This document shows positions 1-22,788 of a stretch of DNA of 22,948 bases, in pieces. The notes under the pieces are model-generated. The model saw only the letters and a list, made by a program, of their open reading frames with translations, was not told the origin of the DNA and searched no databases. The DNA lies in the IMG/VR virus record IMGVR_UViG_3300020197_000176, positions 1-22,948 of that record. One strand, given 5' to 3'. How positions within the stretch are numbered: the first letter of the stretch is position 1; the number at the start of each line of letters is the position of its first letter. Source of the stretch: a virus. The position numbers and the translations under genes were made by a program.

Positions 1-382
1 CAACTAACATTTTAAATGTTTCATAAGCTAATGTTATATAACCTAAATACTTCGACATTAATTGTTGTAGTATATTTAGAGATTTTTGCAATTCTGCTTG
101 TTGAGCTATTTGTTGATTGAGATAGTCTATTATCGCTTGATTTACGACTCCGGTTTGTTTTTGTCGTTGTATTTCTTCGGCTTTTTGTGTTTGAAGTTCA
201 GCCATTTTATTAATGGAAGTTTGAATTTGATCATTAATACCTTTTAATGGATTCAATGAATCTTTTATTTTTCGACTTACATCATTCCACGACTCAACAA
301 ACTCCTTGTTTTGTTCTCTAGCTTTTTCAAGTTGAGACAAAAGTGCTTGAAGTGATTTTTCTGCTTCGGTTGTGGTTGCCAT
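1..382 (-). CDS. Coiled-coil protein, N-terminal part (possible tape measure)
   Basis: The reading frame is open from the ATG at 382 to the window edge, about 127 residues, so the C terminus is missing. The visible part is rich in Gln, Glu, Lys and Leu with heptad-like spacing, fitting a long coiled coil; a more hydrophobic stretch begins near the edge (around residues 108-127). There is no signal peptide. It directly follows the tail assembly protein and its frameshift extension, which in contractile and siphophage tails is the usual place of the tape measure gene. That position is the main argument for the role. The octamer TATTTATT lies at 394-401 on the coding strand, 11 nt before the ATG. 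Alternatives are a hub or tail-fibre coiled-coil protein. The existence of the gene is well supported; the function is inferred. Confidence 0.6.
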   Translation of the reverse strand, partial: MATTTEAEKSLQALLSQLEKAREQNKEFVESWNDVSRKIKDSLNPLKGINDQIQTSINKMAELQTQKAEEIQRQKQTGVVNQAIIDYLNQQIAQQAELQKSLNILQQLMSKYLGYITLAYETFKMLV

Positions 383-406: not shown

Positions 407-622
407 TTATCTAAAAGTTGGACGGTCTATTTTACCTTTAGGTTGAGGTTTTGACTCGCTTTGTTTATTTTCACGTTCTTTTGATTCCACCAATTTTTTG
501 TAATAAAAATTGCGCAAATGTATAGGTAATAAATAAACTTCGGATGGTGTAAATCCGTTTCCGTAATAACACAAATCAAATATTACGTTTTGAAGATATA
601 CTTTATACTCAGGTGTTAGGCC
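407..622 (-). CDS. ATG-less frame, likely frameshift extension of the gp26-like protein
   Basis: A 71-codon open frame (GGC at 620-622 to TAA at 407-409) contains no ATG anywhere, yet reads as a real protein: a Tyr/Phe-rich helical core with the phrase GFTPSEVYLLPIHLRNFYYK, then a charged Lys/Glu/Gln tail. From memory, similar phrases occur in short proteins encoded just after gp26-like genes and before tape measures in marine myoviruses; this was not checked by search. It overlaps the end of the gp26-like gene in another frame. The overlap contains seven T on the coding strand, so ribosomes could enter this frame by a +1 or -2 shift after Phe266 of the upstream gene, giving a product of about 337-338 residues. 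A TTG start inside the frame is the alternative, but would discard much of the core. Confidence 0.55.
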   Translation of the reverse strand, partial: GLTPEYKVYLQNVIFDLCYYGNGFTPSEVYLLPIHLRNFYYKKLVESKERENKQSESKPQPKGKIDRPTFR

Positions 623-1421
623 AAAAAAAGCTAACCGTCATAGGTACGGCTACCCTTTCTTGGTGAGAACATTCTGTACAACTATATTCAAATCTACTAT
701 CCACATCTGGTGAAAAAGCCTTTGCATATTGTCGAAATGCACTGCTATCCATTGCTAATAGTTGGTTGTCAATAAATGATTTGATCTTTGCCTTATCGGT
801 TTCTCCATTAATAGAAATTATCATGTACTTTAATCGTGTGGTAATTTCGCTAGAAGAGTCTTTCTTTAATTTAGCAAATCCTTCAATATCACGTTCAATT
901 TGTTTTTCATCTCCGGCGGTCAATAATTTAAATTTGACGGTAATCTTCGACTTGGGCAACACATATTCAAATTCGTTTAAACCCCGTGGATATTTATCAA
1001 ATTCAATCTCTTTATACTTGATTTCTGATAAATCTATATTTTGTTTTGATGAATTACTGCACTTTGGACATGTAATTTCGAGTGGTCCATAACTATCACC
1101 ATATGCCAATCGTCTGACGGAATAAATCAACGCATTTTTATCCCCGATCAATAATTCATCCAAATTAATATCTCTATCTACAACAAGACTTTCTAACAAC
1201 TTTTCAATAGCCAATCCCTTTTTAAGTAAATTTGGACTAGATAGAATATCTTCTTCTCTAGCAGTCATCAACTTCACTTCGATTTGCCCAGAGGATAATT
1301 TGCTCTTTGGGTCATAAAAATGACCTTGACTTGGCAAATCAATTATTTCTGTTGGAAATGTTGGAGCAGCTGGTTTTTGACTAACAACGTTTTGTCTAGT
1401 AATAGAAATTTCTTCACTCAT
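609..1421 (-). CDS. T4 gp26-like baseplate hub / tail assembly protein
   Basis: A 270-residue protein with a Pro-rich N terminus followed by a segment around residues 24-65 (EIIDLPSQGHFY, then VKLMTAREEDILSSPNLLKK) that I recognise from the T4 baseplate hub gp26-type family. Two CxxC pairs are visible, CPKC near residues 118-121 and CTEC near 249-252, probably binding one zinc. The protein ends with FFWPNT, a family-like ending. In T4 the gp26 product is needed for assembly of the central hub. Here it lies downstream of the tail tube and nucleotidyltransferase genes and just before a probable tape measure, fitting a tail assembly chaperone role. A T7 run six codons before the stop may let part of the ribosomes continue into the 407-622 frame. 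No clear Shine-Dalgarno sequence precedes the ATG. Confidence 0.65.
   Translation of the reverse strand: MSEEISITRQNVVSQKPAAPTFPTEIIDLPSQGHFYDPKSKLSSGQIEVKLMTAREEDILSSPNLLKKGLAIEKLLESLVVDRDINLDELLIGDKNALIYSVRRLAYGDSYGPLEITCPKCSNSSKQNIDLSEIKYKEIEFDKYPRGLNEFEYVLPKSKITVKFKLLTAGDEKQIERDIEGFAKLKKDSSSEITTRLKYMIISINGETDKAKIKSFIDNQLLAMDSSAFRQYAKAFSPDVDSRFEYSCTECSHQERVAVPMTVSFFWPNT
621..632 (-). promoter_or_regulatory. Candidate frameshift slippery site (T7 run)
   Basis: On the coding strand the sequence is AGC TTT TTT TGG C in the gp26-like frame. Skipping one T, or slipping back two on the seven-T run, puts the ribosome in the 71-codon frame that follows; a -1 slip would instead reach a stop after two codons. 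The downstream frame has no ATG. A homopolymer length error in the assembly would look the same. Confidence 0.5.
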
Positions 1422-1470: not shown

Positions 1471-2244
1471 TTATTTTTTCAAAGCCTTTTGAGCATCTTG
1501 TGCAGTTTGTGCAAGTACACGCGCACGTTTGTTAACATCAGCTACAGCTTTCTGGAAATCTGATTCTGATCCAACCAAAGCATCCATAAAACCCTCTTCT
1601 TTAATCAGTTTCTTGATAAGTTCTTTCAATCTTTGTTTTTTTGCTTTATTCATAGGTTTTAAAATGTTATAAATACTCTTTACTATGTCTGGTTTTATAC
1701 CAGGATAGTTTGTCTTGAAATTTTTAAAATCGTTATTTGACAAATCTAGTCTTAGTGTACTAGCACTGATACTCTTTCCGTTTTTATCATCTGTTCTACC
1801 GAAATAATTTGTAGGTGCATCATCTGTCATATTAATACTAGTTACACCCTTTGGTGCAGCCAAACCATCTTTTGTGGGTTTGACTTTATATCTTTCTATA
1901 GCTGACGAAAAGATTCCGCTACGTTTTGCGTCTTCTGGACTTTTTGCACTAGCTCCCAACGCAATTGTATCAGTACTATCCTTTGGTAAACTGAATACAT
2001 AACCAAAAGCTGCATTCATAGGATTATCATCTTGTACCGCAACAATTTCTATTTTTGGGTTATTTGATAACAAATTCCAAATAGCTAAACTTTGTTGTCT
2101 ATTGATACCATCACGTTCGGTTGGTCCAACCATAACAATAACTTTACCAACATTTGGTCTGCTAGCAAACTTGTTAGCTAGTCCTAAATGACCAACATGT
2201 GGTGGTTTAAATCCGCCTGGTAATAATACCGTCACCTTATCCAT
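1471..2244 (-). CDS. Adenylyl/cytidylyltransferase-like nucleotidyltransferase
   Basis: With the start at 2244 the protein has 257 residues. It begins with LLPGGFKPPHVGH (residues 7-19), the GxFxPxHxGH nucleotide-binding motif of HIGH-type nucleotidyltransferases such as NadM, PPAT and cytidylyltransferases. A later ISASTLR segment matches the ISSTxxR motif that closes the active site. So it probably transfers AMP or CMP from a nucleoside triphosphate; the acceptor cannot be told from sequence. The last 60 residues are Lys-rich and helical, unlike classic NadM, and may be a separate interaction tail. An upstream ATG at 2277 is rejected because it lies inside the terminator of the tail-tube gene, whereas the ATG at 2244 is preceded by the TATTTATA octamer (2248-2255). 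Its place between tail tube and hub genes is unusual for a metabolic enzyme. Confidence 0.75.
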   Translation of the reverse strand: MDKVTVLLPGGFKPPHVGHLGLANKFASRPNVGKVIVMVGPTERDGINRQQSLAIWNLLSNNPKIEIVAVQDDNPMNAAFGYVFSLPKDSTDTIALGASAKSPEDAKRSGIFSSAIERYKVKPTKDGLAAPKGVTSINMTDDAPTNYFGRTDDKNGKSISASTLRLDLSNNDFKNFKTNYPGIKPDIVKSIYNILKPMNKAKKQRLKELIKKLIKEEGFMDALVGSESDFQKAVADVNKRARVLAQTAQDAQKALKK

Positions 2245-2263
2245 ATATATAAATATTGGTAAA

Positions 2264-2294
2264 ATAAAAAACCCCACAAATAAATGTAGGGTTT
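2264..2294 (-). terminator. Rho-independent terminator after tail tube gene
   Basis: On the coding (minus) strand AAACCCTACA (2294-2285) pairs with TGTGGGGTTT (2278-2269), ten positions with one mismatch, around a 6-nt loop, followed by a run of T. It lies about 20 nt after the tail tube stop codon, so it would end or attenuate the abundant tail tube transcript. Confidence 0.75.
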
Positions 2295-2315: not shown

Positions 2316-2807
2316 TCAATATTGAAGAATACAATAGTCCGGTTGGATAGTCAAGTTAATTAACATAGCTTCACCATCATTTGACCAATCCATTTCATTA
2401 AAAGTTGCTTCGGTGATGAACGCGCCCTTTAGAGTCCATTCCTCTACCTTATCACCAACTGGACCTAGTACATTGATTGTTAGATCTTTTTTATAGAAAT
2501 CTTGATAACCATCACGCCCAGTTACAGATTCATGGTGCAAACGCACCCATTCCATTACTGCTTGAGCGCCACTTGGTACGATTGGATCATACAATTCTAG
2601 AGTCATTGTACCCCATGTGGTTTTACCCTTATAATAAGTCTTGATATTGATGTGATCTAGTTCTTTTGATGCTTGTGTAATTTTTGGACGATCACATTTC
2701 TTGATTACAAAAGATGGAATACCATCAACGTACAAAATAAAGCGGTTTTTTACCTTTGGTTCAAAGGCTGTATAAAAAATTTCAGATGGATTAAGTAGTT
2801 CGGCCAT
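2316..2807 (-). CDS. T4 gp19-like tail tube protein
   Basis: The protein has 163 residues, the same length as T4 gp19, and its pattern fits the T4 gp19-like tail tube family: an N-terminal strand with KNRFILYVDGIPSFVIKKC, a central KGKTTWGTMTLELYDPIVPSG segment, and a C-terminal stretch (GAFITEATFNEMDWSNDGEA, then NLTIQPDYC). The protein should stack as hexameric rings inside the sheath. The gene has its own upstream octamer TATTTATA (2830-2837, 22 nt before ATG) and a strong terminator right after it, as expected for a highly expressed structural protein produced from its own transcript. No sheath gene is present next to it in this window, unlike the gp18-gp19 pair in T4. Confidence 0.85.
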   Translation of the reverse strand: MAELLNPSEIFYTAFEPKVKNRFILYVDGIPSFVIKKCDRPKITQASKELDHINIKTYYKGKTTWGTMTLELYDPIVPSGAQAVMEWVRLHHESVTGRDGYQDFYKKDLTINVLGPVGDKVEEWTLKGAFITEATFNEMDWSNDGEAMLINLTIQPDYCILQY

Positions 2808-6032: not shown

Positions 6033-9000
6033 TTATGAAAAAACCTCAATATATTTTGTACCAGCCGTAAAAGCATTTGAACCGCCATTCGACACACTTG
6101 CCGCTATATAAATACGAATATATCCGGCTAATGTTCTACCACTACTACTTGTTGTAGCTATACCATTACAATTTGCAATAGACAAAAAGTTGCTAGTATT
6201 ACCCGCTCCATATACATACAATCTACCATTTGCATCGGGTACATCACCCACACCTATATTTGTATTAGTAACTTGAAATGTCCTAGTAGCAGCCGCATAT
6301 ATAGAAATTGGTAATGTTTGATTATAAAAATAAGCTTCAGTGGGCGCATTATTTAAGTAAGATTCTCCATTAGAATTTCTAAATGCTATATCATTACTTC
6401 CAAATGAGAAACTCCCAGGCGATGCTCCTCGTTTAACTGTTAAAGGATTAGTACTCGTTGATGTATCATTTACACCTAAATGACTATTAGCTGTGTCATG
6501 AAATAAAAAGGTGCTATCTTTTAGAGTTGTAGAAGATGTGGAATAAATGACTCTATCAGTGTTTGTAAATGAACCACCACTTATACCACTAGTACCGGCT
6601 GGCGCAGCAAGACCACTTGTACCTGTCGTACCTGTTGAACCACTCGTAGCATTTGCAGTACTTGTACCACCTGTAGCAGTAGCACCATTTGTACCACTTG
6701 TACCACTGCTACCACTGGTAGAACTTACAGTACTTGTACCACCTGTAGCAGAAGCACCACTGGTACCACTTGTACCATTGCTACCACTTGTTGCGCTTGT
6801 ACCGCTTGTTCTTGCACCAGTACCACTAACACCATTATTACCACTTGTACCACTGCTACCAGTTGTTGCGCTTGTACCGCTTGTTCTTGCACCAGTACCG
6901 CTTGTACCATTATTACCACTTGTACCACTGCTACCAGTACTACCACTAGTAGAACTTACAGTACTTGTACCACCTGTAGCAGCAGCACCACCGGTACCGC
7001 TGCTACCAGTACTACCACTGGTAGAACTTACAGTACTTGTACCACCTGTAGCAGCAGCACCACTGGTACCACTTGTACCATTGCTACCACTTGTTGCGCT
7101 TGTACCGCTTGTTCTTGCACCAGTACCACTAACACCATTATCACCACTTGTACCACTGCTACCAGTTGTTGCGCTTGTACCGCTTGTTCTTGCACCAGTA
7201 CCGCTTGTACCATTATTACCACTTGTACCACTGCTACCAGTACTACCACTAGTAGAACTTACAGTACTTGTACCACCTGTAGCAGCAGCACCACTGGTAC
7301 CGCTGCTACCAGTACTACCACTGGTAGAACTTACAGTACTTGTACCACCTGTAGCAGAAGCACCACTGGTACCACTGGTACCACTGCTACCACTGCTACC
7401 ACTTGTACCGCTGGTAAAACTTTCAGTACTTGTACCACCTGTAGCAGAAGCACCACTGGTACCGCTGCTACCAGTACTACCACTGGTAAAACTTATAGTA
7501 CTTATACCACCTGTAGCGGACGCACCACTGGTACCACTGGTACCACTGCTACCACTGCTACCACTTGTACCGCTGGTAAAACTTAAACTACTTGTACCAC
7601 CTGTAGCAGAAGCACCACTGGTACCGCTGCTACCAGTACTACCACTGGTAAAACTTATAGTACTTATACCACCTGTAGCGGACGCACCACTGGTACCACT
7701 GGTACCACTGCTACCACTGCTACCACTTGTACCGCTGGTAAAACTTTCAGTACTTGTACCACCTGTAGCAGAAGCACCACTGGTACCGCTGCTACCACTT
7801 GTACCGCTGGTAAAACTTAAAGTACTTGTACCACTTGTTCCGCTTACACCACTGGTACCAGCAGTACCACCTGTACCACTTGTGCCACTTGATGATCCAC
7901 TTAAACCACTGGTACCAACCAAACCACTGCTACCAGCAGTACCGCCTGTACCACTTGTACCACTGGTACCACTTGTACCACTTGTACCACTGGTATCACT
8001 TGTACCGCTTGTACCATTATTACCACTGGTACCACTTGTGCCACTGCTACCACTTGTAAATGCACCCGAACCACTTGTACCACTTGTTCCGCTTACACCA
8101 CTGGTACCAGCAGTACCACCTGTACCACTTGTGCCACTTGATGATCCACTTAAACCACTGGTACCAACCAAACCACTGCTACCAGCAGTACCGCCTGTAC
8201 CACTTGTACCACTGGTACCACTTGTACCACTTGTACCACTTGTACCACTTGTTTGGCTTACACCACTGGTACCAGCAGTACCGCCTGTACCACTTGTACC
8301 ACTTGTTGATCCACTTAAACCACTGGTACCAACCAAACCACTGCTTCCATTAGTTCCTCCAAATCCACTTGTACCACTTGTACCACTTATACCACTTGAA
8401 AAACAACTGTTACCACTTGTACCATTTGTACCATTTTGACCACTGCTACCACTGGTACCAGTGGTACCGCTTGTTCTTGCACCAGTACCACTAGTGCCAT
8501 TTGTACCATTTGCACCACTGCTACCACTGCTACCACTTGTACCACTTGAAAAACAACTGCTACCACTTGTACCATTCAAACCACTTGTACCATTTGTACC
8601 ACTTGTACCACTTGAAAAACAACTGCTACCACTTGTACCACTTGTACCATTTGCACCACTGGTACCACTGGTACCACTGGTACCGGTAGTACCGCTTGTT
8701 CCTGAACCACCACTAGTGCCATTTGTAGCAGATAATCCGCTGCTACCACTCGTACCATTCAAACCACTTGTACCATTTGTACCACTCGTACCACTTGAAA
8801 AACAACTGATACCACTTGTACCACTCGTTCCGCTTTTACCACTTGTACCACTTGTACCACTTGTACCACTGCTACCACTGCTACCACTAGTGCCACTTGT
8901 ACCACTCGTTCCGCTTGTACCACCCGTACCATTTGTACCACTCGTTCCGCTTGTACCACTCGTTCCGCTTGTACCAGATGTACCACTTATACCACTAGTA

Positions 9001-9344
9001 CCATTTGTACCAAATATACCACTTGTACCGGAAGTACCGGTTACACCACTAGTGCCTGACGCGGGTGCTATAAAAACTTCTTTTGTGATATTATCTATGG
9101 CTAAAACATGAGTTAACGGAAATGGACCAGCGCCTGTACCTGACGGAAGATTAGTATATAGATTATTGGAAACATATATTTTTGAAGCAGTTATTTCGTT
9201 TAGGTTTTTTGAACCTGTTAAAAGGCCTTGTGCGTTTGTAATAATTAATAAATTGCTACCAGAAACCACCCTTTCTGTAAAATTATTTCCAGAGGAGTCA
9301 CGTTGAGTAAAAAGAGATGCAAATCTATCGATACTACTACCCAT
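6033..9344 (-). CDS. Giant collagen-like GTS-repeat tail fibre protein
   Basis: A 1103-residue protein in three parts. Residues 1-95 form a non-repetitive head that probably attaches to the virion. Residues 96-923 are almost pure Gly-X-Y triplets dominated by Gly-Thr-Ser, which should form a collagen-like triple helix well over 200 nm long if continuous; interruptions include SCFSS (four times), ARTSG, and T-x-SFTSG cassettes. Residues 924-1103 form a non-repetitive, strand-rich C-terminal domain that may trimerise and bind the receptor. The low content of Pro means stability would come from Thr and Ser rather than hydroxyproline. The ATG at 9344 is preceded by TATTTATT (9354-9361). The gene follows the gp15-like tail terminator and precedes a glycosyltransferase. 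A whisker, tail or head fibre are all possible; a fibre role in general is likely. Confidence 0.8.
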   Translation of the reverse strand: MGSSIDRFASLFTQRDSSGNNFTERVVSGSNLLIITNAQGLLTGSKNLNEITASKIYVSNNLYTNLPSGTGAGPFPLTHVLAIDNITKEVFIAPASGTSGVTGTSGTSGIFGTNGTSGISGTSGTSGTSGTSGTSGTNGTGGTSGTSGTSGTSGSSGSSGTSGTSGTSGKSGTSGTSGISCFSSGTSGTNGTSGLNGTSGSSGLSATNGTSGGSGTSGTTGTSGTSGTSGANGTSGTSGSSCFSSGTSGTNGTSGLNGTSGSSCFSSGTSGSSGSSGANGTNGTSGTGARTSGTTGTSGSSGQNGTNGTSGNSCFSSGISGTSGTSGFGGTNGSSGLVGTSGLSGSTSGTSGTGGTAGTSGVSQTSGTSGTSGTSGTSGTSGTGGTAGSSGLVGTSGLSGSSSGTSGTGGTAGTSGVSGTSGTSGSGAFTSGSSGTSGTSGNNGTSGTSDTSGTSGTSGTSGTSGTGGTAGSSGLVGTSGLSGSSSGTSGTGGTAGTSGVSGTSGTSTLSFTSGTSGSSGTSGASATGGTSTESFTSGTSGSSGSSGTSGTSGASATGGISTISFTSGSTGSSGTSGASATGGTSSLSFTSGTSGSSGSSGTSGTSGASATGGISTISFTSGSTGSSGTSGASATGGTSTESFTSGTSGSSGSSGTSGTSGASATGGTSTVSSTSGSTGSSGTSGAAATGGTSTVSSTSGSTGSSGTSGNNGTSGTGARTSGTSATTGSSGTSGDNGVSGTGARTSGTSATSGSNGTSGTSGAAATGGTSTVSSTSGSTGSSGTGGAAATGGTSTVSSTSGSTGSSGTSGNNGTSGTGARTSGTSATTGSSGTSGNNGVSGTGARTSGTSATSGSNGTSGTSGASATGGTSTVSSTSGSSGTSGTNGATATGGTSTANATSGSTGTTGTSGLAAPAGTSGISGGSFTNTDRVIYSTSSTTLKDSTFLFHDTANSHLGVNDTSTSTNPLTVKRGASPGSFSFGSNDIAFRNSNGESYLNNAPTEAYFYNQTLPISIYAAATRTFQVTNTNIGVGDVPDANGRLYVYGAGNTSNFLSIANCNGIATTSSSGRTLAGYIRIYIAASVSNGGSNAFTAGTKYIEVFS
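6576..9059 (-). repeat. Gly-X-Y coding repeat region
   Basis: About 2.5 kb of 9-nt-based repeats encoding Gly-Thr-Ser triplets. Above the triplet level there are higher-order periods: about 303 nt (6720-7325, two near-identical tandem copies), about 162 nt (7485 and 7647) and about 249 nt (7824 and 8073, with a third partial copy near 8255). Reverse-frame open stretches here are by-products of the repeat. Confidence 0.9.
6720..7325 (-). repeat. Two tandem near-identical 303-bp units in the fibre gene
   Basis: Position 6829 onward matches position 7132 onward with only scattered base differences, over about 300 nt. The unit length is 101 codons, so gain or loss of a copy keeps the reading frame. 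Confidence 0.75.
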
Positions 9345-15403: not shown

Positions 15404-15955
15404 ATGATATTAATGACATTTTTAACCATATTGCTACTAATTCTCTGGTGTAGTATATTTGAGTGGCTATTACATAAATATTTGATGCATAAGTCACTTT
15501 TCAAGTTTGAATACGCGTATAAAGCTCACACCAAGGTACATCATAATATTTATAAGTACGACGAAACTTATCACGCTCAAAATGGAGATGATGGTAAAAA
15601 GATTCCTATGGCTTGGTGGAATGGCGTGGTAATCTCATTACTAGCTGCATTACCTATGTTTATATTTGGATATAAAATATTCTTGTTAACATTTGTTGTG
15701 TCTATGTGTTATTACGGAATGTATGAATTTATACACTGGTGTATGCATTTTCCAAAAAGTAGAAATGTAGAATATAGATTATGGTTTAAGAAACTAAACG
15801 GACACCATTTATTACATCATAGATATATGCATAAAAACTATAATGTGGTACTGCCATTTGCTGATTGGTTATTTGGTACTTTATTAATAAAAAGTCCAAT
15901 TAAATTTGGTCAATGTAAACCATCTTATTGTGTACCAAATGTTCAGCCAGAATAA
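15404..15955 (+). CDS. Fatty acid hydroxylase / sterol desaturase-like membrane enzyme
   Basis: A 183-residue protein with the eight-histidine layout of the membrane di-iron hydroxylase superfamily: HKYLMH (H24, H29), HTKVHH (H42, H46, H47), HWCMH (H111, H115) and HHLLHHRYMH (H134-H143). Hydrophobic spans lie at about residues 2-20, 74-105 and 147-160. It would hydroxylate or desaturate a lipid or carotenoid in the membrane using oxygen and two irons. It is the only plus-strand gene inside a minus-strand block of more than 20 kb. Its 3' end overlaps the kinase gene, read in the opposite direction, by 13 nt, and no terminator is seen between them. The inverted position suggests late gain as a metabolic cargo gene. 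Substrate and direct benefit are not known. Confidence 0.75.
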   Translation: MILMTFLTILLLILWCSIFEWLLHKYLMHKSLFKFEYAYKAHTKVHHNIYKYDETYHAQNGDDGKKIPMAWWNGVVISLLAALPMFIFGYKIFLLTFVVSMCYYGMYEFIHWCMHFPKSRNVEYRLWFKKLNGHHLLHHRYMHKNYNVVLPFADWLFGTLLIKSPIKFGQCKPSYCVPNVQPE

Positions 15956-20061: not shown

Positions 20062-20403
20062 TTAATTAAAACTTTTACCACAACCACAAGTGCTTGCTGC
20101 ATTTGGATTAATAAATTTAAAACCTCCGCCCATTAATTCATAAGAATAATCTAGTTCAGCCTCTTTAATATAATTCGCACTAAAATTGTCTATGACTACA
20201 CTCACACTTTCATATTCATATACCAAATCATTGTCTCTGATTTCATCAAATGTCATACCATACTGTAAACCACTACATCCACCTGCTTCTACAAATATTC
20301 TCAAACTTTTGTTTTTATAATCCTCTGTATTTTTAACTAAATTATTTACTTCGGTTAAAGCATTATCAGTTAATTTAATTATTGAAGTTTCTAATTTTAT
20401 CAT
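20062..20403 (-). CDS. IscA/ErpA-type (HesB-like) iron-sulfur carrier
   Basis: A 113-residue protein with the full A-type carrier pattern: an N-terminal helix (LTDNALTEVNNLV), then VEAGGCSGLQYGM with C43, and the C-terminal GGGFKFINPNAASTCGCGKSF with C106 and C108. The three cysteines are spaced as in IscA/ErpA, so it should hold a [2Fe-2S] or [4Fe-4S] cluster and pass it to target proteins. Length is usual for the family (about 107-120). Phage-borne copies are known in marine myoviruses. It starts 3 nt after the stop of the basic protein, so they share a message. It could support iron enzymes of the host or phage, such as the di-iron hydroxylase or the Mom-like protein, but that link is speculative. 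Confidence 0.9.
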   Translation of the reverse strand: MIKLETSIIKLTDNALTEVNNLVKNTEDYKNKSLRIFVEAGGCSGLQYGMTFDEIRDNDLVYEYESVSVVIDNFSANYIKEAELDYSYELMGGGFKFINPNAASTCGCGKSFN

Positions 20404-22014: not shown

Positions 22015-22788
22015 ATGTCAAAATATTGTGATACATCGTTAATTGACATCAAAAGTATCAATAAAAATGTTGCAAAAACACTTATTGAAAAAAATCATTA
22101 CACTCACAAATGGAGTTTATGTACTGTAGCTTATGGTGTTTATCATAAAGAATATATAGAAAGCACATTCTTTGGTGGTTATAACGAAAAATTAATTGGC
22201 GTATTGATATACGGAAATGCAGTAGGTAGAAATGCCAGTACAAGCATATCTCCACTACTTACTAACAACAATGTACTAGAACTTACAAGACTGTGGATAT
22301 CTGATGGTTATGGCAAGAATATTGAAAGCTATTGTATTGCTGAAAGTTTTAGATTATTAAACATCGAATATCCCCACATAAAATGTATATTAAGTTACGC
22401 TGACAGCGAGGTGGGTCATAAAGGTACAATATATCAAGCAACAGGATTCCTATATCAAGGGGATAATTATGTAGATATAGCACTAATGCCTAACTATAGT
22501 GTTAGTTTAAACGGTCCTCCTAATTATGAGTGGATACATAGTAGAAGTGTTTATGCTAGATGGAAAACACATAGTGTGGATAAACTAAAAGAACGTATAG
22601 GTAGAACATTTTGGCGCAAACGTGAAAGCGGTAAACATCGTTATATCAAGTTTATTGGCAACAAGATAGAAAATAAAAAGTTAGCTAAATCACTAAAACA
22701 TAAAGTTCTACCTTACCCAAAAAATACTTCGTTCAAAGAAGAAGTAACGGAAATCCTTGTGGAAAATATCAATCAATTTTTTGAATAA
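22015..22788 (+). CDS. Mom-like DNA adenine modification protein (GNAT-like)
   Basis: A 257-residue protein with the pattern of the Mom family, first known from phage Mu, which converts adenine in phage DNA to a carbamoylmethyl form and so blocks restriction. Family-like segments: LIEKNHYTHKW (23-33), VLELTRLWI (87-95), NIESYCIAESFRLL (102-115), ILSYADSEVGHKGTIYQATG (125-144) and a C-terminal GKHRYIKF followed by KVLPYPK. The middle region is a GNAT-like acyltransferase fold. Mom proteins act alone or after sequence context set by DNA. The gene is on the plus strand, divergent from the lipoprotein, with TATAAT at 21996-22001 and no TATTTATA octamer, so it may be expressed on a different schedule from the late genes. 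It ends in a strong terminator. Confidence 0.75.
   Translation: MSKYCDTSLIDIKSINKNVAKTLIEKNHYTHKWSLCTVAYGVYHKEYIESTFFGGYNEKLIGVLIYGNAVGRNASTSISPLLTNNNVLELTRLWISDGYGKNIESYCIAESFRLLNIEYPHIKCILSYADSEVGHKGTIYQATGFLYQGDNYVDIALMPNYSVSLNGPPNYEWIHSRSVYARWKTHSVDKLKERIGRTFWRKRESGKHRYIKFIGNKIENKKLAKSLKHKVLPYPKNTSFKEEVTEILVENINQFFE

Follow-up and report, generated by a model that had tools for sequence, protein, structure and literature searches.

The window, meaning the whole 22,948-base virus record that was analysed (IMGVR_UViG_3300020197_000176), carries on its minus strand a gp26-like gene and, out of frame with it, a conserved extension without an ATG. The features of this locus and the evidence for each are as follows.

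2-382, minus strand: start of a probable tape measure gene, running off the window end (PHROG tape measure E 0.0058; Pfam GldM_1st 25.1 vs 25 bits; weak)
407-622, minus strand: second-frame extension, the putative TAC-C, 71 codons plus stop, without ATG (relatives in 59 viral loci; helical model, pLDDT 85)
609-1421, minus strand: gp26-like short product, the putative TAC-N, 270 aa (PF12322 T4_baseplate E 3.4e-16; phrog_150 baseplate hub E 6.2e-18)
618-629, minus strand: putative frameshift site TTT TTT TGG CCT, read from the sequence (P-site codon UUU 624-626; 0-frame A-site codon UGG 621-623)
632-652, minus strand: predicted upstream hairpin of 7 bp (646-652 with 632-638), loop 639-645 (MFE of 630-668, one further pair included, -8.2 kcal/mol)
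653-661, minus strand: purine-rich stretch AAGAAAGGG, read from the sequence, where most relatives have a Shine-Dalgarno (SD)-like core; a weak part of the element
1471-2277, minus strand: cytidyltransferase-like gene, between the tube and chaperone genes (phrog_395 E 5.8e-06)
2316-2807, minus strand: tail tube gene (phrog_4542 E 1.3e-29)

Positions 632-618 of the minus strand read AGC TTT TTT TGG CCT, followed by AAC ACC TGA, and the gp26-like protein ends V S F F W P N T with its stop three codons past TGG; the 71-codon, ATG-less frame that follows is confirmed as given in the preliminary description. The second frame lies at +1, is open already before the T run, reads F F G L T P E Y and stops at 407-409. 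After a +1 shift at this site the ribosome would stand on UUU (623-625), with GGC next, and the fused product would have 337 aa when T GGC is read as one step. The two predicted readings, of 270 and 337 aa, agree with the sizes that had been estimated. The same seven T are present in three further IMG/VR records of this phage (L001-L003; 99.9-100% identity over 3,500 bases, gapless), and a run of six T, which had been named as potential counter-evidence, occurs in none of the three. Because the same T7 recurs in these records, sequencing error is a very unlikely cause of the frame break. The window had no Rfam match at gathering score.

Several other genes were recorded in the window. A 1,103-aa collagen-like protein with Gly-Thr-Ser repeats (6033-9344, minus; PF01391 E 1.8e-39), a protein with a prokaryotic N-terminal methylation (pilin-like) motif, which seemed unusual for a phage record (18571-19227, minus; PF07963 E 3.2e-09), and an iron-sulphur cluster biosynthesis family protein (20062-20403, minus; PF01521 E 2.8e-16) are encoded on one strand, and a fatty acid hydroxylase family protein (15404-15955, plus; PF04116 E 1.1e-11) and a Mom family protein (22015-22788, plus; PF25680 E 2.2e-43) on the other.

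Protein identity and gene order

The gp26-like gene scores 60 bits against PF12322, for which the Pfam cut-off is 24.5, and so belongs to the T4 gp26 family. The genes in the window run in the order tail tube, cytidyltransferase-like gene, gp26-like gene, second frame, probable tape measure, and Flavobacterium phage immuto, as annotated, has the same order of tube, gp26-like gene, second frame and tape measure; the placement ahead of a probable tape measure gene, like that of lambda G/GT, which had been pointed out from the window, is supported by this gene order. Among 114 representatives (<85% identity, drawn from the 205 +1 sites described below), an ATG frame of at least 100 codons, counted as an open frame and not as an identified gene, lies within 400 bases downstream in 100, at a median gap of 290.

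Of 501 PDB chains aligned with a structure model of the fused protein (pLDDT 82), the best match was 2ob9, the tail assembly chaperone of HK97 (Z 4.9, rmsd 3.3, 77 residues); this match is weak by the tool's own scale and, by its rule, tied with the next chain, 5ir0 (Z 4.0). The closest viral models of the fused protein include the SP-15 gp26-like protein. The extension alone is predicted to be helical (pLDDT 85); it had no match in BFVD at E <=0.001 and a best PDB Z of 3.0, and a sequence search of the PDB returned nothing convincing for either part. Pfam and PHROGs searches with 36 second-domain members gave only weak matches (DUF6760 in 6/36, best E 0.002; phrog_634 in 4/36, best E 0.03). 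Synteny and the weak best PDB match suggest a pair of short and long tail assembly chaperones, and the gp26-like gene is better named a probable tail assembly chaperone than the hub gene that it had been called.

Conservation of the out-of-frame extension

Relatives were gathered in three sets. The first, obtained by a scan with the second frame and therefore selected by it, comprised 59 viral loci, in 58 of which the second frame lies at +1 to the gp26-like frame after T7; T7 is followed by GGCC in 56 and by ACCC in two (L030, L031). In the remaining locus (L056) both domains occupy one continuous frame, which is open at the contig 5' end. As this set had been found by the second frame, a second set was fetched by the first-frame profile alone and consisted of the best 80 among the matches listed, 79 of which could be judged, one (L136) being cut by the contig end. 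In all 79 uncut loci of these best 80 the second-domain profile matched a frame other than the first, with a weakest match of 27.6 bits; 77 of the 79 lay at +1 and two (L091, L148) at -1 or +2. The out-of-frame position of the second domain in 79 of 79 is beyond chance as judged from these sequences. A third set of 84 loci (80 of the matches listed, plus 3, plus 1), whose contigs partly overlap the earlier sets, yielded 80 frame calls, 71 at +1 and nine at -1 or +2; two loci (L159, L163) were cut, and two others (L237, L238) had no second-domain match. Genome contigs scanned once with the second frame gave no relative. Alignments mixing fused, first-frame and second-frame rows misplaced fragments and were left out of the analysis.

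The conserved part of the second frame starts at the slip site. Among the 114 representatives, 68 have no ATG, GTG or TTG in this frame either upstream of the shift or within three codons past it, and 24 have no ATG over its full length. Sequence comparison establishes that the out-of-frame extension after the gp26-like gene is real and conserved. The earlier proposals that the second frame is conserved and that a programmed frameshift joins the two frames both gain support from its out-of-frame position in the 79 of 79 uncut loci among the best 80 matches listed. On the accompanying questions about related loci, the frame break is present throughout those 79, the T run is broken by a C at 19 of 205 sites, and L056 has a single frame.

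The slip site

A script that sought TGG or TAC directly after TTT or CTT, ahead of the 0-frame stop, found this pattern near the stop in 205 of 206 +1 loci, all of which would allow a YUU-U slip with re-pairing to UUU; the one +1 locus without it (L240) belongs to phage SP-15 and reads TTT TTT CAC. With near-copies included, the 205 sites comprise TTTTTTTGGCCT (148), TTTTTTTACCCT (33) and TTTCTTTGGCCT (17), the rarer forms TTTTTTTGGCCA and TTTTTTTGGCCC (2 each), and TTCTTTTGGCCT, TTTTTTTGGGTT and TTCTTTTACCCT (1 each). Counting the preceding base, the T run has seven T at 185 of the 205 and eight at one, and at the other 19 a C lies inside the run, leaving no run longer than four T. The two bases after the UGG or UAC codon are CC at 204 of 205 sites. 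A hand-written DNA pattern had matched 0 of 66 loci and was abandoned.

In the 114 representatives the P codon is TTT in 104 and CTT in 10, the A codon is TGG (UGG) in 94 and TAC (UAC) in 20, with no UGA stop in the A site, and the codon after it is CCT in 110; the 0-frame stop lies 5 or 7 codons past the P codon in 112. After the shift, GGC is used at 93 of 94 UGG sites, compared with 42 of the 368 Gly codons in the rest of the second frame, and the Tyr codon at the site is TAC in 20 of 20 vs 131 of 639 in the first frame, a difference that is partly by construction because TAT is not in the script pattern. Since GGC and TAC are preferred at the site and the stop spacing is kept, the nucleotides there seem to be constrained beyond both encoded proteins. 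The +1 loci retain UGGCCU or UACCCU at +3 to +8 (numbered from the P codon's first base) beyond codon usage. On a tree of 123 first-frame proteins, CTT sites account for at least three changes (gains or losses), and these sites keep both the second frame and the hairpin (mean z -1.96, 10 sites). We take the essential slip element to be YUU-U, as in prfB, extended to YUU-UGG/UAC-CC, and not a long homopolymer. The suggestion of a shift on the T7 run is corrected in this respect, a long run as such being inessential.

Structure around the slip site

An upstream hairpin, which had gone unmentioned in the preliminary description, ends in the window five bases before the P-site codon. Its register varies among phages and covariation at fixed columns was weak (best z 4.9), which is why structure was assessed by codon-preserving shuffles, with a z of folding energy for each stretch. 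In 82 representatives the stretch from -42 to -4 had a mean z of -1.92, with 74% below -1, as against mean z values of -0.06 to -0.32 in four upstream control stretches; representatives share ancestry, so that z and t values overstate their independence. A scan of 114 representatives with a 30-base window peaked between -36 and -1, where the mean z reached -1.94 to -2.00 and roughly 60% lay below -1.5; over the stretch from -120 up to window -57..-28 the mean z stayed within -0.08 to -0.56. By site class, the mean z of window -33..-4 was -2.00 for T7-GG (83), -1.90 for T7-AC (19) and -1.96 for TTTCTTT (10), and two single TTCTTTT sites had weak hairpin scores (-0.80 and -0.45). The last pair falls 4 to 10 bases before the P codon in 74 of 82 representatives, the folded stretch having ended at -4, and the commonest registers have a median helix of 5-8 bp. 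Within one register, single pairs appear as GC, CG and AT in different phages, an illustrative observation on subsets picked for the hairpin. By the shuffling test, a predicted stem-loop directly upstream of the slip site is conserved beyond what the codons require.

An SD-like core (AGGA, GGAG or GAGG) is absent from the upstream stretch of the window. Among the 114 representatives such a core occurs at -36 to -19 at a frequency of 0.75 vs 0.22 in shuffled sequences, and at -18 to -1 at 0.11 vs 0.17, so that the prfB-like arrangement with an SD 3 nt upstream is not found here. The downstream region from +4 to +36 is also more structured (mean z -1.2 to -1.6; far downstream control -0.77). By eye, inverted repeats enclosing the 0-frame stop lie just past the shift site in L081, L133, L137 and L151; in L090, L100, L105, L127 and L146 inverted repeats surround this stop, and the GGCC of the site could pair with a downstream GGCC.

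Putative change of shift direction and distant phages

Ten entries, namely L148, L091 and eight of the third set (L157, L158, L160-L162 and L164-L166, where L157 and L164 are the same contigs as L091 and L148), carry A AAT TTC, a -1 heptamer, and have their second domain at -1 or +2. Seven representatives of this type form one side of a branch with an SH-aLRT support of 100, and an upstream hairpin is not consistently present in them (mean z -0.83 over the seven, with a single one at -2.86; own control -0.78). In more distant phages, a second frame at +1 was seen by eye in immuto (TTT CTT TGG), in Mel-JY01 and RM378 (T7GG), and in LR756508, GXN1 and SP-15, and T TTT TTC with a second frame at -1 in LR756511, Paride and Atu_ph07. 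The frames of LR756508, LR756511, RM378, GXN1, SP-15, Paride and Atu_ph07 were assigned by eye from open frames, with weak profile support among the seven, confined to SP-15 (L240) and a relative of LR756511 (L239); other relatives of LR756511 (L237, L238) gave no second-domain profile match. For the nine distant phages, tblastn supported the second frame in immuto and Mel-JY01. In the annotation of the immuto phages and Mel-JY01, the extension is labelled, in part or whole, as a hypothetical protein, which the present analysis corrects.

Alternative explanations

Transcriptional slippage, in which the polymerase would drop one U of U7 with help from the nascent hairpin and a U6 mRNA would encode the long form, fits the T7 sites, exactly seven T being found at 185 of 205 and eight at one. 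It also has a described counterpart in the Roseiflexus IS630 element, where, according to the accessible part of the source, a 5' adjacent hairpin accompanies the loss of one base (PMC5009743). However, the run of about five or more identical bases typical of that case is present at 186 of the 205 sites and missing from the 19 with an internal C, where a one-base realignment would leave mismatches; these sites nevertheless keep the second frame and, where they read TTT CTT TGG, the hairpin as well. Longer T runs are nearly absent, and the constraint extends past the run into UGG/UAC and CC. The C-interrupted run, together with the likeness to CUU UGA, the RF2 site, favours a ribosomal +1 shift over polymerase slippage, which we regard as unlikely. 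A ribosomal shift of -2 would lead to the same frame, and a tRNA bound to UUU could re-pair at -2 on U7; at TTT CTT TGG, by contrast, a tRNA on CUU would face UUC after -2, whereas +1 gives UUU as in prfB, and in the accessible text of one study an engineered upstream hairpin attenuates -1 shifts and stimulates +1 (PMC6321510). Of the two directions left side by side in the preliminary description, +1 is thus the more likely, and we give -2 hardly any weight.

The second frame might instead be a gene in its own right, translated from a non-ATG start or by reinitiation. Starts are indeed available in many relatives, 46 of 114 having an ATG, GTG or TTG upstream of the shift or within three codons past it (18 of them ATG), one such start is annotated in Mel-JY01, and most relatives have an SD-like core further upstream. 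The other 68 have no such start, 24 of the 114 have no ATG in the whole frame, and the first TTG in the window (574) would lose conserved residues, since conservation sets in at the slip site; this reading offers no reason for the constraint on YUU-UGG/UAC-CC, and L056 has both domains in one frame. An own start, which had been put forward as evidence against a shift, is accordingly present in some relatives, where independent initiation may occur, and lacking in most; a separate gene strikes us as very improbable. Least probable of all is that the hairpin and T run serve to terminate or attenuate transcription ahead of the next gene, with the frame break incidental: a hairpin followed by a T run has the expected order, yet most folds leave a gap between stem and run, the run is interrupted at the C-containing sites, and the conserved out-of-frame domain is left unexplained.

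Proposed mechanism

The programmed +1 frameshift itself is highly likely from the comparative evidence. Both frames, the slip site and the hairpin are conserved, and we infer that the shift occurs, how efficient it is, that the hairpin pushes the ribosome and what each product does. With good confidence, we propose that the two frames constitute one chaperone locus in which a +1 slip promoted by the hairpin would yield a 270-aa short and a 337-aa long form with lambda-like roles. Most ribosomes would continue in the 0 frame to TGA and release the short form. A fraction, holding YUU in the P site while a sense codon, UGG (or UAC), occupies the A site, would slip by +1, the peptidyl-tRNA re-pairing from YUU to UUU, and would continue with GGC CUN into the long form with its helical C-terminal domain. 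Refolding of the stem-loop right upstream of the E-site codon would push the ribosome forward. If the two products act like lambda gpG/gpGT, the tape measure would be coated by the short form, and recruiting tail tube subunits would fall to the long one.

In prfB, an internal Shine-Dalgarno duplex pushes the ribosome forward and CUU re-pairs to UUU. The push by a hairpin is suggested by engineered precedents: in E. coli extract, +1 shifting at CUU UGA is stimulated by a stable hairpin of 12 bp placed beside the E site (Huang et al. 2018, PMC6321510). According to the accessible part of that paper, the effect is about 60% of that of an SD duplex and appears only without RF2, the same hairpin stimulates +1 at CUU UGU when cysteine is scarce, and the engineered stem is GC-rich, a destabilised hairpin being far less effective. 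A comparable 5' stem-loop 'motor' figures in the current model of the T4 gene 60 bypass, as presented in the accessible text of PMC5009743. Taken more broadly, it is somewhat probable that the locus represents a natural and widespread +1 shift at a sense codon, driven by hairpin refolding behind the ribosome and possibly by a distant SD brought near, that this shift controls chaperone stoichiometry in T4-related phages, and that the family has switched between +1 and -1 while keeping the fusion.

Comparison with known systems

Frameshifted tail assembly chaperones (TACs) are well known in phages. The present locus resembles those of the lambda gpG/gpGT type in that a short and a long product are expected from one start, ahead of the tape measure gene, with an out-of-frame C-terminal domain; it differs in its putative +1 shift at YUU-UGG/UAC in place of a -1 heptamer, in its membership of the T4 gp26 (PF12322) family and in its upstream hairpin. 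A very likely +1 case among tail chaperones is HSTV-2, and long-tailed phages, 'except T4', widely keep G-T frameshifting, both as given in the accessible portion of PMC5009743. T4 shares the PF12322 family through gp26 and gp51, which are homologous to each other (E 3e-6), but there 26 and 51 stand apart as genes of their own, one on each strand. The second frame shows no more than suggestive homology to the C-terminus of gp51 (hhalign E 0.055, probability 1%; phrog_634 in 4/36, best E 0.03). Because gp26 relatives keep the out-of-frame extension in 79 of 79 uncut loci among the best 80 matches listed, the two-gene arrangement of T4 is plausibly derived. In some T4-like phages a short chaperone gene is accompanied by a longer, fused version, according to the accessible part of PMC10885494.

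Recently described from other myoviruses are the TACs of Vandenendeviridae and Andersonviridae (phage Adele), in which, as far as the accessible text of PMC12846349 goes, a poly-T signal likewise ends TAC-N and the second frame is annotated as hypothetical or intergenic, whereas the shift is -1 at a GTTTTT motif. Since poly-T signals in the TAC-N genes of T4-like phages are, by the same text, a known feature, part of the present finding may already be in print (cf. Vladimirov et al. 2022). Our literature search, which did not reach Vladimirov et al. 2022, found no earlier description of this +1 element.

The nearest mechanistic relative is prfB (release factor 2), with CUU or UUU in the P site, a U next, +1 re-pairing to UUU and an upstream duplex as presumed stimulator. 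In contrast to prfB, the phage site has a sense UGG or UAC in place of UGA, a hairpin replaces the SD at 3 nt, and autoregulation is not evident. With the engineered system, as described in the accessible part of PMC6321510, the phage element shares its components and their arrangement (hairpin, E-site codon, YUU, sense codon), but its stems are shorter, and UGG and UAC are not known to be starved and need not be slow. The phage site offers a large set of natural variants for testing how an upstream hairpin may drive forward movement of a bacterial ribosome at a sense codon.
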